The notes under the pieces: generated by a model | Told to the model about the DNA's origin: nothing | Databases searched by the model: none | What the model saw: the letters and a program-made list of their open reading frames with translations, nothing else | Shown: positions 24,829-29,261 of the stretch, piece by piece | Numbering within the stretch: position 1 is the first letter of the stretch | How the letters are laid out: every line of letters begins with the position of its first letter | Assembly: GCF_014083985.1 (NCBI RefSeq) | Contig: NZ_CP046907.1 | Location: forward strand, 1,778,001-1,842,000 | From: Streptomyces sp. SCUT-3 | Lineage (GTDB): Bacteria; Actinomycetota; Actinomycetes; Streptomycetales; Streptomycetaceae | Direction of reading: 5' to 3' | DNA: 64,000 bases | Made by a program: the position numbers and the translations under genes

Positions 24829-26253
24829 ATGCGCCGAGCCAAAATCGTCTGCACCCTGGGCCCCGCCGTCGACTCCTACGATCAGCTCAAGGCACTGATC
24901 GAGGCCGGCATGGACGTGGCCCGCTTCAACATGAGCCACGGCTCGCAGCCCGAGCACGAGAAGCGCTACCGCAAGGTGCGCCGCGCCTCGGAGGAGACCG
25001 GCCGCGCCGTCGGCGTGCTGGCCGACCTCCAGGGCCCGAAGATCCGCCTGGGCCGGTTCGCCGAGGGGCCGGTGACGGTCGAGGCGGGCGACACCTTCAC
25101 CATCACCACCGAGGACGTCCCCGGCGACCAGGAGACCTGCAGCACCACCTACAAGGGGCTGCCCGGCGACGTGAAGCCGGGCGACCCGGTCCTGGTCAAC
25201 GACGGCGCGGTGGCCCTGGAGGTCGTCGAGGTCGACGGGCCGCGGGTGCGCACCCGGGTCGTCGAGGGCGGCGTGCTGTCCAACAACAAGGGCATCAACC
25301 TGCCCGGCGCGGCCGTCAACGTCCCCGCCCTGTCCGAGAAGGACAAGGAGGACCTGCGCTTCGCCCTGCGCATGGGCGTCGACATGGTCGCCCTGTCCTT
25401 CGTGCGCAACGCCGCGGACGTCGACGACGTGCACGCGGTCATGGACGAGGTCGGCATCCGCAGGCCGGTCATCGCCAAGATCGAGAAGCCGCAGGCCGTG
25501 GAGGCGATGGAGGAGATCGTCCTCGCCTTCGACGGCGTCATGGTGGCCCGCGGCGACCTGGCCGTGGAGTACCCGCTGGAGCGGGTGCCGCTGGTGCAGA
25601 AGAAGCTGATCACGCTGTGCCGCCGCAACGCCAAGCCGGTGATCGTGGCGACCCAGATGATGGAGTCGATGATCAGCTCCTCGCGCCCGACCCGCGCCGA
25701 GGCCTCCGACGTGGCCAACGCCATCCTGGACGGCACCGACGCGGTGATGCTCTCGGCCGAGTCCTCGGTCGGCAAGTACCCGATCGAGACGGTCCGCACG
25801 ATGTCCCGCATCGTCGAGGCCGCCGAGGAGGAGCTGCTCTCCCTCGGCCTGCAGCCGCTCAACCCGGGCCGCAAGCCGCGCACCCAGGGCGGCTCGGTGG
25901 CCCGCGCCGCCGCCGAGCTCGGCGACTTCCTGAACGCGAAGGCGCTGGTGGCCTTCACCGTCTCCGGCGACACCGCGCGGCGGCTGTGCCGCTACCGCTC
26001 CCCCATCCCCGTGCTGGCCTTCACCACCGACGCCGCCACCCGCGCGCAGCTGGCCCTGAGCTGGGGCGTCGAGGCGTTCGTGGCGCCCTTCGTGAAGGAC
26101 ACCGACGCGATGGTCGCGCAGGTCGACCACGACCTGACGCGGCTGGGCCGGTTCGACGAGGGCGACACCGTGATCGTCACGGCCGGCTCCCCGCCCGGCA
26201 CCCCCGGCTCCACCAACATGGTCCAGGTGCACCACCTGGGCACCCTGCGGTAG
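24829..26253 (+). CDS. pyk: Pyruvate kinase
   Basis: 474 residues, ATG 24829, beginning MRRAKIVCTLGPA as the family does. Converts phosphoenolpyruvate and ADP to pyruvate and ATP. A-domain barrel with metal/substrate motifs (NMSHGS, MVARGDLAVE, PVIVATQMMESMI), the B-domain lid about residues 70-165, and the C-terminal allosteric domain (about 350-474). Follows pta-ackA after about 110 bases with a separate leaderless-type promoter, giving a glycolysis/overflow cluster with pfkA. A strong hairpin follows the stop. Confidence 0.97.
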   Translation: MRRAKIVCTLGPAVDSYDQLKALIEAGMDVARFNMSHGSQPEHEKRYRKVRRASEETGRAVGVLADLQGPKIRLGRFAEGPVTVEAGDTFTITTEDVPGDQETCSTTYKGLPGDVKPGDPVLVNDGAVALEVVEVDGPRVRTRVVEGGVLSNNKGINLPGAAVNVPALSEKDKEDLRFALRMGVDMVALSFVRNAADVDDVHAVMDEVGIRRPVIAKIEKPQAVEAMEEIVLAFDGVMVARGDLAVEYPLERVPLVQKKLITLCRRNAKPVIVATQMMESMISSSRPTRAEASDVANAILDGTDAVMLSAESSVGKYPIETVRTMSRIVEAAEEELLSLGLQPLNPGRKPRTQGGSVARAAAELGDFLNAKALVAFTVSGDTARRLCRYRSPIPVLAFTTDAATRAQLALSWGVEAFVAPFVKDTDAMVAQVDHDLTRLGRFDEGDTVIVTAGSPPGTPGSTNMVQVHHLGTLR

Positions 26254-26349: not shown

Positions 26350-27642
26350 TCAGTCGTTGTACAGGCGCATTCCGGGGATCTTCAGCGTGCCGCCGAACTG
26401 GCCGGCCTGCACGACCGTCACCTTGGTGAAGAACGCCTCGGGGACGTTGAGCGGGGGCGGGCTCTCGGGGCTGAAGGTGACCGGGATCAGCCCGAAGAGG
26501 TTGCCCTTGAGCGACTCGGTGTACATGGTCACCGTGCCGTTGCGGATCTCCGAGGTCGAACCCTTGCGTGCCTGGACGTGGTAGGTGACGCCGCCGCCGC
26601 CGTCGACCAGCTGGTGCAGGTCGCGGATGTCGACGCCGCTCGCGGTGAACTTCAGGACGTCCTTGACGGTCCCGTTCGCCGTCCTGACCTTCACGATCCC
26701 CTTGTAGTCCAGACCGTGCAGGGCCAGCAGGCTGGTCTCCAGGGTCCAGGGGCGGTCCGGCAGGAGGGTGGGGGTCTTCTCGTACTCGGCGTCGGCCAGG
26801 GCCTCGGCGTCGTAGGTGGGGCAGGGGTAGGGCTGCTTGCCGTCGGCCTGCTCCGGCTCCGTCGCGTCCGCGGACTCCGCGGGCCCGGCGGACTCCGCGG
26901 GCTCCACGGGTTCGGCGGACGCGGCGTCCTCGGCGGCCTGCCGCGCGGCGTCGCCCGCGGTGTCCGCGGCGTCCTTCGCCGCGTCCCCGGCCTTCTCCGC
27001 AGCGTCGCCGGCCGGGTCACCGGTGCCCTCCTGCGGGGCGGTGGCGCTCGGCGAGGGAGAGGCCGCGGCCTCCTCCCCGGCGGGCTCCTGCGGCTCGTCG
27101 CCCTTCGGGCCGCCCTCGAAGAAGTCCTTGATCGGGTCGATGATCGGGTCGAGCAGCCCGGTGCGCCCGTCCTCCTCGGCGGCCGCCTCCTGCTGCTGCG
27201 CGTCCTCCTGCGCGGGGGCGGTCGGCGAGGCGGTCGGGGCCGGGGCCTCTCCCGCTCCCCCACCGCCCGTACTCGCGCCGGGCCGCGGTGCCGTCCCGCC
27301 GCCCGACGGCTCCTGCGCGGCCGGCGCCGAGGCTCCGGCAGAGGGGGCCGCGGGGGCCGGGGTGGCCGACTGCGTCTCCTCCTCCTCCGGCGGCCGGTCG
27401 GGCTGGGTCACGCACGGGCCCGGCGCGAAGGGGTTCTCCGGCAGCTCGTCCGCCTGGGCGAGCTTGGGGGTCAGCCCCATGCCCATCAGAACCGCGGTGG
27501 GCATGGCCGCGAGTGCGATCGCCCTGCCCGTCGGGACCTGCAGGCGGGTCAGCAACGACTTCCTGGGGGCCGCGTGCCGCGGCCCCGGCCCGGTGGCGCG
27601 GGCCCGGCCGTCCGGCGCCGCTTGCGCCTCGTCACCCCGCAC
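26350..27642 (-). CDS. Exported Ala/Pro/Glu-rich protein with conserved C-terminal domain; function unknown
   Basis: 430 residues, GTG 27642, with GGGAGG 5 bases upstream. Not recognised as a characterised family. Seen: a basic N-terminus of about 35 residues, one hydrophobic stretch (IALAAMPTAVLMGMGL, about 41-56) with a possible AQA cleavage site; a disordered Pro/Ala/Gly/Glu linker to about residue 270, including an AAKDAADTAGDAA-type amphipathic stretch; then a folded C-terminal domain (about 275-430) with DRPWTLETSLLALHG and ending GGTLKIPGMRLYND. That last stretch resembles the end of the nearby DUF6230 protein (AGTFKLSGLNMKVL). It overlaps the DUF6114 gene by 11 bases, so the two are coupled. 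Probably cell-surface. Confidence 0.75.
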   Translation of the reverse strand: MRGDEAQAAPDGRARATGPGPRHAAPRKSLLTRLQVPTGRAIALAAMPTAVLMGMGLTPKLAQADELPENPFAPGPCVTQPDRPPEEEETQSATPAPAAPSAGASAPAAQEPSGGGTAPRPGASTGGGGAGEAPAPTASPTAPAQEDAQQQEAAAEEDGRTGLLDPIIDPIKDFFEGGPKGDEPQEPAGEEAAASPSPSATAPQEGTGDPAGDAAEKAGDAAKDAADTAGDAARQAAEDAASAEPVEPAESAGPAESADATEPEQADGKQPYPCPTYDAEALADAEYEKTPTLLPDRPWTLETSLLALHGLDYKGIVKVRTANGTVKDVLKFTASGVDIRDLHQLVDGGGGVTYHVQARKGSTSEIRNGTVTMYTESLKGNLFGLIPVTFSPESPPPLNVPEAFFTKVTVVQAGQFGGTLKIPGMRLYND

Positions 27643-28162
27643 GGTGCCTCCCGTTCGTAGACTCGTCGTCCGCCCCGGGGCCTGCCGCGGCCTTCTGGAG
27701 CGTGAATCCTGCGCTGTCGTTCGGTGTGCTCTCGTCGTGCTCCGCGGGGGCGTCGGCCTCCGCGGCCGGTCGGGGCGGGACCCAGGACAGGGCCAGGGCG
27801 CCGCCGAGCAGGGCCAGCAGGAACCCGATCACGAAGCCGCCGATGTTGGAGACCACCAGGGAGACCAGGGCCAGGAGGATCGCGGCGACCCCGGAGAAGG
27901 TGCGCACCAGGGGCTGGAACCACATGGTCAGGCCCAGCACCACCAGCAGGACGCCGATGATCAGGGAGCCGGCCCCGGCGGTGGTGGCCATCCGGATGCT
28001 CAACTGGCCGAGGGTGAGGTTGGCGTAGGGGAAGTACGCGATCGGCAGCCCCCCGAGAAGGGTCAGCAGCCCCGCCCAGAACGGGCGCTGCCACCGCCAC
28101 GTCCGGAAGGAACGGCGCCAGCTGCCGAGGCGGTCACTCAGTTCTTGCGACTCGGCACTCAT
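27632..28162 (-). CDS. DUF6114-type integral membrane protein
   Basis: 176 residues from ATG 28162 (GGGAG about 10 bases upstream); a frame up to 28207 lacks support. Four hydrophobic helices: PFWAGLLTLLGGLPIAYF, then AGSLIIGVLLVVLGLTMWF, FSGVAAILLALVSLVVSNI and GGFVIGFLLALLGGALALSW; a polar C-terminal tail of about 40 residues. The pattern and its place next to a DUF6230 gene match the actinobacterial DUF6114 family, recognised from memory. No known activity. Its stop overlaps the start of the exported protein gene. A 13-bp hairpin separates it from DUF6230 upstream, so expression may be attenuated. Confidence 0.8.
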   Translation of the reverse strand: MSAESQELSDRLGSWRRSFRTWRWQRPFWAGLLTLLGGLPIAYFPYANLTLGQLSIRMATTAGAGSLIIGVLLVVLGLTMWFQPLVRTFSGVAAILLALVSLVVSNIGGFVIGFLLALLGGALALSWVPPRPAAEADAPAEHDESTPNDSAGFTLQKAAAGPGADDESTNGRHRAG

Positions 28163-28231
28163 GGAAATGCATCTCCCTGGGACTGTCGATCGGTCGAACC
28201 GGGACATGGCCTGTCCGGTCGCTGAGGGGGT

Positions 28232-28273
28232 GCGGCGCGGGCGGAGGCACCCAGGGCTCCCCGCCCGCGCCGC
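28232..28273 (-). terminator. Hairpin between DUF6230 and DUF6114 genes
   Basis: 13-bp perfect stem (28232-28244 with 28261-28273), 16-base loop, just after the DUF6230 stop. May cut transcription so that DUF6230 is made in excess of the downstream genes (inference). Confidence 0.6.
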
Positions 28274-28281
28274 TCAGTGCA

Positions 28282-28899
28282 TCAGTAGCACTCGTGCTTG
28301 CCCTTGAGGACCTTCATGTTCAGGCCCGAGAGCTTGAAGGTTCCCGCGGTGGTCGCCCACGCGGTCTGCTTCACATCGGTCAGCACGACGCTCTCCGCCT
28401 GCTGGGAGAACGACCCCGGCAGGGCGGCGTCGCCCTTCTTGACACCCGGGCCCTTGGTGGTGGACCCGACGGCCGTGCCGATGTCGATGTTGGTGAACGT
28501 GGCATCGGCGGACAGGGTGTCCAGGTCGATGTAGAGGTTCTTGGCCTCGACCGGGTCCTTCCCGCCACCCGCGCCCAGGTTCAGCGACACGTCGCCGAAG
28601 CCGGGAACGGGGAGCACCACGGACTGGCACAGGTTCTTGATCGTGGCGCTGTCGAACGCCGAGACCGCGACCGGCACCTTCTCGCCGTTGTGCTTGGTGT
28701 CCAGCGCGCCGTACTGGACGAAACCGTTTCCGTCCAGACGCTCCGCGGCGACCTTGAACTGCTGCCCGGAGACGCTGAACGAGGCCGCGAGCGCGCCCTG
28801 TCCGAGCGCCACACCGATCGCGGCGGTCGCCGCGACGCTGGGCACCATGACGACTGCGAACCGCTTCCACTTGGTGCGGCCACGAGCCATAGACTCCAT
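28282..28899 (-). CDS. DUF6230-family secreted protein
   Basis: 205 residues from ATG 28899, with an excellent AAGGAGG 6 bases upstream; the in-frame ATG at 28890 is too far. N-terminus MARGRTKWKRFAVVMVPSVA is a signal peptide/anchor (hydrophobic about 15-38, cleavage near LAAS). The mature part of about 165 residues is beta-rich with alternating polar/apolar strands (FSVSGQQFKVAAERLDGNGF, YIDLDTLSADATFTNIDIG) and has one internal Cys and one near the C-terminus (KGKHECY). The family has been labelled cholesterol esterase in old annotations without a visible lipase motif. Its very strong RBS suggests abundance. First gene of the cassette with DUF6114. Confidence 0.82.
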   Translation of the reverse strand: MESMARGRTKWKRFAVVMVPSVAATAAIGVALGQGALAASFSVSGQQFKVAAERLDGNGFVQYGALDTKHNGEKVPVAVSAFDSATIKNLCQSVVLPVPGFGDVSLNLGAGGGKDPVEAKNLYIDLDTLSADATFTNIDIGTAVGSTTKGPGVKKGDAALPGSFSQQAESVVLTDVKQTAWATTAGTFKLSGLNMKVLKGKHECY

Positions 28900-29261
28900 G
28901 ACTTTCCTCCTTCTCGGACGTACATCTCCGGTGGAGGCCCGTTGCGGGCCGCGAATCCACCTGGGATGGGAGAAGAGCTACGTCCTCGGGAAGGAGATGC
29001 GCCCAGGCCGGCCGGAACTGGTGGACACCAGCGCAGGACCGGCGACAACGGCGATCACCCCCGAGCGACAACCACTGGCCACGCTCTCGCGCAACCTGCT
29101 GGACAGGCTCCGCCGGTGGCGGAGACCCCCCTGTCCGGACGGCACCGCGGTGCCGTCCGCCCGGTGGGGACCCGTCCCCTTCGCACCGGCCGGATGCCGG
29201 GCTGCGGGACGGACCGAGCTTGGCCGATCGTGGTCCATCGGGGGCTGCCGCACAAGTGGTT

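Follow-up and report, generated by a model that had tools for sequence, protein, structure and literature searches.

The stretch of Streptomyces sp. SCUT-3 DNA analyzed here (64,000 nucleotides of contig NZ_CP046907.1, positions 1,778,001–1,842,000; hereafter the window) carries on its minus strand three genes, A, B and C, which almost certainly constitute an operon. Gene A encodes a small secreted protein of the DUF6230 family, gene B a membrane protein of the DUF6114 family, and gene C a membrane protein whose C-terminal domain is, with near certainty, a homolog of the A protein. Gene A is preceded by a long conserved leader that begins with the orphan RNA che1. This combination suggests a module of the cell envelope whose substrates are hydrophobic (long-chain esters or lipids) and which is governed by a switch in its leader, a reading to which we give somewhat less than an even chance. 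A first-pass annotation of the window had described A-B-C as an uncharacterized secreted/membrane cassette; all the sequence features it listed are present, and its proposals of related domains, co-occurring genes and a dedicated membrane partner stand. Its view of the linker in C as a free tether probably does not. The label 'uncharacterized' needs amending, as the family of gene A already bears the name 'cholesterol esterase' and the gene itself lies behind che1, both of which that annotation lacked.

The A protein and the C-terminal domain of C

Gene A (28282–28899, minus strand) is a full-length member of DUF6230 (PF19741; model positions 1–145 of 145, 199.7 bits versus a cut-off of 27.5, E-value 3.4e-59). 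Its Shine-Dalgarno sequence (SD) is AGAAGGAGG, and its product begins with a Sec-like signal ending at ALA/AS; the AlphaFold model (pLDDT 90.4, pTM 0.84) comprises nine strands and no helix of four or more residues, in agreement with the initial description of a small exported beta-rich protein with a strong ribosome-binding site. Gene C (26350–27642, minus strand) exhibits no match to Pfam (up to E-value 1) or NCBIfam over its whole length, and its C-terminal domain (26353–26766), which is likewise without a Pfam match up to E-value 1, could be related to DUF6230 only by profile-profile comparison, i.e. as a remote homolog. The comparison with hhalign (alignments of 143 and 125 rows) aligned the two families end to end, over 128 of 135 columns, with a probability of 91%, a P-value of 9.8e-7 and a score of 43.4, while the reversed profile scored 16.9 and none of 100 column shuffles exceeded 17.5. 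The short C-terminal likeness between A and C, noticed by eye in the first-pass annotation, is in register in this alignment. The C-terminal domain of C is also predicted to be all beta (pLDDT 93.0, pTM 0.86), so that the structure predictions and the profile comparison give no indication of different folds; the strand states of the two independent models agree in 103 of 129 aligned columns (80%), in the same order over the whole alignment, and the agreement peaks at zero shift and drops on either side. That the domains are unrelated and share a C-terminal motif by chance is very improbable. The pairwise identity is merely about 16–23%, and the hhalign probability was 68% (P-value 4.7e-5) in the first run and 27% (P-value 6.9e-4) with smaller, window-anchored alignments; the signal rose, however, with alignment depth, and the profile of the C domain weakly finds the C-termini of deep-branching DUF6230 proteins (E-values 0.027–0.14).

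Searches for solved relatives of A by sequence yielded ephrin receptors at best (E-value 0.23), which we judged to be chance matches. Comparison of the A model with the PDB revealed no match (Foldseek: best E-value 1.5e-2, probability 0.11; VIA: best Z-score 3.5), which is not proof of a new fold; among viral models the best hit had an E-value of 6.4e-3 and a TM-score of 0.18. The C domain likewise found no match in the PDB (best E-value 5e-2, best Z-score 2.6). Galectin, acetoacetate-decarboxylase-like and secretin entries that appeared in these comparisons were not accepted as relatives.

Conservation of the operon

The three genes, which the first-pass annotation had proposed as a unit, do co-occur. 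Of 61 genomes, namely that of the window and those of 60 relatives, 49 contain DUF6230 and the identical 49 contain DUF6114. A DUF6114 lies downstream of 95 of 100 DUF6230 matches, on the same strand and no more than 1.5 kb away, and 92 of 95 DUF6114 matches are preceded by DUF6230. The C domain was detected in 42 genomes, with 52 of 56 match rows (a few of them pieces of one open reading frame, ORF) located after a DUF6114. It was missed at that sensitivity in seven genomes with the cassette, of which two (loci L200 and L201) were positive with a wider profile. In 79 of 80 named loci A, B and C follow in this order on one strand, and the exception (L165) begins at the end of a contig; as these loci were selected via the C domain, they are uninformative on how often C is missing. 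A phylum-wide search identified DUF6230 in 19 of 296 genomes, and in all eight of the most distant loci obtained from it (L188–L195) DUF6114 comes after DUF6230.

The spacing of the genes is conserved as well. The end of B and the start of C share precisely 11 bases, as initially noted, and 77 of the 80 loci permit this offset too. The hairpin seen between A and B is real: a G+C-rich stem-loop lies directly 3' of the A stop codon (28232–28273, minus strand), and a stem with at least 8 G-C pairs occurs within the first 120 nt after that stop in 77 of 80 loci, against 5 of 237 control windows inside gene A, which were not composition-matched. From the conserved hairpin it is plausible that A and B/C are made in unequal amounts: the hairpin would lower B and C relative to A, and the overlap would couple B to C. 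A match of Rfam mir-343 to positions 28219–28283 (22.9 bits versus a cut-off of 70) was dismissed as a chance hit on the hairpin. The stretch just 5' of the gene B start (28150–28185) is also conserved, reading CCAGGGAGCTGTTTTCCATGAG in several loci.

Genes B and C as a proposed membrane unit

Gene B (27632–28162, minus strand; best start 28162, stop 27632) is a full-length DUF6114 member (PF19609; model positions 1–105 of 106, 119.6 bits versus 27.9, E-value 1.1e-34) and exhibits four hydropathy peaks, consistent with the four-helix membrane protein originally recognized. What distinguishes it from the family as catalogued is a near-constant DUF6230 neighbor and occasional fusion to the C protein. 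One open frame contains both DUF6114 and the C domain in 10 of 42 C-domain ORFs from the retrieved loci, with a further, fifth membrane segment between the two; in several fusions this hydrophobic segment and the sequence after it (e.g. SDPLPPNPFADGPCV) are the counterpart of the segment in free-standing C (ADELPENPFAPGPCV). B may thus be regarded as a dedicated membrane partner, since it is fused to C in some genomes.

The free-standing C protein comprises one membrane segment (about residues 41–58; 27469–27522, minus strand), a low-complexity linker of about 196 residues from Cys77 to Cys274 (26824–27411, minus strand) and the DUF6230-like domain, in accord with the earlier description of a membrane/exported protein with a 200-residue disordered linker. 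Features of the linker were counted in those 73 of 80 C proteins that display the membrane motif pattern. In 69 of the 73 the membrane segment has GPRHAAPR, or a variant close to it, on its immediate N-terminal side, and the number of cysteines after the segment is exactly two in 71 and three in the other 2; one is situated about a dozen residues beyond the membrane and the other 15–20 residues ahead of the folded domain. The linker is probably not a free tether, because the two conserved cysteines bracket it; a disulfide between them would close it into a loop. By the positive-inside rule, the C-terminal domain is predicted to be extracellular.

The che1 RNA and the leader of gene A

An alignment of 77 loci revealed long invariant blocks over about 300 nt upstream of gene A. 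The 5' part of this leader is a full-length match to che1 (RF02935; 29049–29137, minus strand; model positions 1–91 of 91, 97.3 bits versus a gathering cut-off of 54.1), consisting of two hairpins and an invariant tail. Che1 was identified in 29 of the 61 genomes, once in each (28 above the cut-off), and in all 29 it precedes a DUF6230 domain on the same strand by 222–330 nt. Its two hairpins are strongly supported by covariation (13 pairs and 74 cells in which both partners have changed, equaled by none of 500 shuffles on any measure).

The tail (block 1; 29049–29076, minus strand) is unpaired in the Rfam structure, which ends with it, whereas here it possesses a conserved downstream complement (block 2; 28963–28996, minus strand) that can pair instead with the SD strand of gene A (block 3; 28906–28929, minus strand). 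Block 2 thus acts on paper as an anti-SD strand common to two exclusive helices, a candidate 'ON' helix with block 1 and a candidate 'OFF' helix with block 3. Matches to block 1 number 28 in 27 genomes: 27 lie within che1, and one, with 3 mismatches, lies elsewhere. Block 2 with 0–1 mismatches occurs 27 times, once per genome and always at this locus. The leaders were compared in a set of 60, from which three wrong-strand sequences (L152, L158, L183) and a near-copy of L049 (L051) had been removed before alignment. In this set block 1 is near-invariant, and the complementarity of blocks 1 and 2 amounts to 94.1% of cells (47–60% when slid) and that of blocks 2 and 3 to 96.7% (39–56% when slid). 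Free folding and duplex shuffling were carried out for 55 of the 60 leaders, five being missed by the pattern: the duplex of blocks 2 and 3 beats 99–100 of 100 shuffles in all 55 and that of blocks 1 and 2 beats 80–100, while unconstrained folding predicts the ON helix in 28 and the OFF helix in 23. Forcing the helices in all 60 leaders costs a median of 2.4 (ON) and 5.35 kcal/mol (OFF) over the free minimum. The median probability that GGAGG is open is 0.23 with the ON and 0.00 with the OFF helix forced, and the SD is more open in ON than in OFF in 54 of 58 leaders. According to these folding models a two-state layout of the leader is well supported and its direction less so; that the leader may act as a switch on A we consider about an even proposition. 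The layout, i.e. a conserved upstream domain and two exclusive helices of which one hides the SD, resembles, on paper, that of translational riboswitches.

The leader does not appear to be read as a gene, since the block spacings fall into each of the three frames (22/21/17 and 27/18/15 of 60 leaders) and the three possible frames are open from end to end in only 32, 14 and 8 of the 60. Block 3 also holds an upstream start-like triplet, GGAG-ATGTAC, whose frame with respect to gene A varies from leader to leader (33/16/10), which makes a conserved leader peptide unlikely. In S. clavuligerus a 145-residue reading frame is mentioned for an intergenic region with the che1 motif, and the same passage calls the function of che1 unknown (PMC11678152). 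Che1 also appears as a motif in S. ambofaciens (excerpt of PMC8388888), and a literature search on 'che1 RNA' revealed no mechanism in the passages found. The statement of unknown function, together with the Rfam class of che1 ('Gene; sRNA'), would fit a separate small RNA acting in trans, or else an element of mRNA stability, instead of a cis-acting switch. We nevertheless deem such a role unlikely, as every one of the che1 matches precedes a DUF6230 gene on its own strand, conservation runs on beyond che1 through block 2 to the SD, and transcript data for S. lividans list che1 as an RNA-seq-validated cis-regulatory element of the downstream gene (Table 3 of PMC8079986, as excerpted).

Possible function

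The operon is flanked by a pyruvate kinase gene (24829–26253, plus strand) and a thioredoxin/TPR gene (29474, minus strand). The order pyk-C-B-A matches that of S. coelicolor from SCO5423 (pyk2) down to SCO5420, the genes between them presumably being SCO5421 and SCO5422, and this synteny makes it very probable that gene A is the ortholog of SCO5420. A literature search returned nothing on DUF6114 or SCO5421/SCO5422, and DUF6230 only in a promoter list; in this literature DUF6230 is linked neither to DUF6114 nor to a tethered relative, and DUF6114 has no functional account, so the remark of the first-pass annotation that the trio belongs to no described system holds within it. The hints at hydrophobic substrates are indirect and come from publications. 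A passage of PMC7494193 names SCO5423 as pyk2 and SCO5420 as a cholesterol esterase, and reports the latter to be almost 37-fold up on Tween. A protein of that name, C9Z6Y6, accounts for 33–39% of the S. scabiei lipid-class secretome, where it ranks first in PPM cultures (excerpt of PMC5158115). Cholesterol esterases are also among the nitrogen-responsive genes of S. venezuelae (excerpt of PMC3087709) and the xylose-induced proteins of strain SirexAA-E (excerpt of PMC12772271), which argues for wider roles; the last three are likened to A by name alone. Another lead comes from P16 and P21 of Geobacillus thermoleovorans, membrane-associated proteins induced by long-chain alkanes, whose N-termini the passages of PMC2676291 describe as similar to that of the S. 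lavendulae cholesterol esterase; that paper itself doubts that they are esterases. They resemble A in being secreted, in their length of about 200 residues and, weakly, in N- and C-terminal motifs. The possible link of A to the purified S. lavendulae enzyme rests on the synteny with SCO5420, the name of che1 and the N-terminal peptides in PMC2676291.

In the module that we envisage, the A protein would be secreted and collect hydrophobic material outside the cell, while B, with four membrane segments, and C, with one segment, a disulfide-looped linker and an A-like extracellular domain, would act as one membrane unit. At the membrane A would then deliver its material to the related domain of C, or pair with that domain, the handover of substrate from A to C being the weakest step. 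The output would be set by the leader, in which che1 and a bistable helix switch hide or expose the SD of A.

Several observations speak against this picture. Published work names the family of A an enzyme, with which a pure binding role would be at odds. The Geobacillus peptides, compared as published peptides alone, match our profiles weakly and mostly no better than chance in 2000 shuffles (the best placements, P16-N on A and P21-37 on the C domain, were equaled in 70 and 45 of 2000, respectively). Of the 49 genomes with the cassette families, 20 yielded no che1, so that the module works without it there, and the C domain was undetected in some deep-branching cassettes. AxA-like sequences follow the membrane segment of C, so C may be cleaved and released instead of anchored. 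As to the switch, blocks 1–3 are nearly invariant and neither long-range helix has covariation support, so that covariation neither supports nor denies them; the SD stays mostly paired even with the ON helix forced, which leaves the sign of the switch unproven; and the energies of the two states lie within 3 kcal/mol in only 25 of 60 leaders.

Could A instead be a secreted enzyme that does hydrolyze esters, albeit with a new fold, while B and C just anchor it, protect it or help its export? The induction of SCO5420 on Tween would agree with this. The titles of Nishimura and Sugiyama (1994) and Xiang et al. (2007), who are said to have described the actinomycete 'cholesterol esterase' family, would agree as well. 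The predicted fold of A is, however, all beta and not the alpha/beta-hydrolase fold of the classical cholesterol esterases, and no G-x-S-x-G motif was seen on reading its translation. In 41 homologs the best His column reaches only 13, and the best conserved Ser (S90) is part of an invariant CQS motif, beside a conserved Cys. The homologous C domain lacks C-Q-S, which would be odd for a catalytic site. The classical esterase reading thus fails on both fold and conserved residues, for which reason we favor the hydrophobe-handling module over a plain hydrolase; A may still be a non-classical enzyme, but the hydrolase explanation as a whole strikes us as doubtful. More improbable still is that A is a structural surface protein that forms a coat or fiber outside the cell on the related, tethered domain of C, lipid induction being a side effect of growth state. 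Signals for high-level secretion (the full SD), the existence of the domain in both a soluble and a membrane-held form, Gln residues conserved in its beta strands and the multimolecular aggregates reported for Streptomyces sterol esterases (excerpt of PMC3514274) would all suit such a role, whereas the induction on Tween and the Geobacillus proteins that respond to alkanes speak for substrates.

The hydrophobe-handling module can be extended to a more specific and more tentative proposal, which is rather unlikely in all its parts: the che1 leader would be an orphan riboswitch that is present once per genome and senses, through its ligand, the lipid or envelope state, and it would control a hitherto unrecognized shuttle for lipids outside the cell, built on a new beta fold, with A as the secreted carrier and B-C as a membrane receptor bearing a disulfide-looped carrier domain. 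If this were true, the label 'cholesterol esterase' would be wrong or secondary. This enzyme name, which has been copied through Streptomyces annotation and used in the interpretation of secretome and RNA-seq data, is now questioned, three database orphans (DUF6230, DUF6114 and the che1 RNA) become one testable unit, and che1 gains a concrete mechanism to test, namely which helix forms and what flips the choice.

Other copies and variants

Among 72,556 plasmid records, A was found in 5, all of them large actinomycete replicons, and B in none. The genome of SCUT-3 holds two further DUF6230 genes, neither with che1. One forms a second DUF6230-DUF6114 pair (L006:5820-7011, minus strand) that adjoins a regulator-like gene, with no C gene in the stretch read; the other (L007:6124-6798) is solitary, without DUF6114, among regulator-like genes. 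In L075, L077 and L203 tandem DUF6230 pairs are followed by a long fused DUF6114-C protein (frames of 869–889 residues), in which the C domain matches in two separate stretches. In L199 (3267–3755) a truncated DUF6230 is joined directly to a truncated DUF6114 in one frame of 198 residues, probably a decayed copy.

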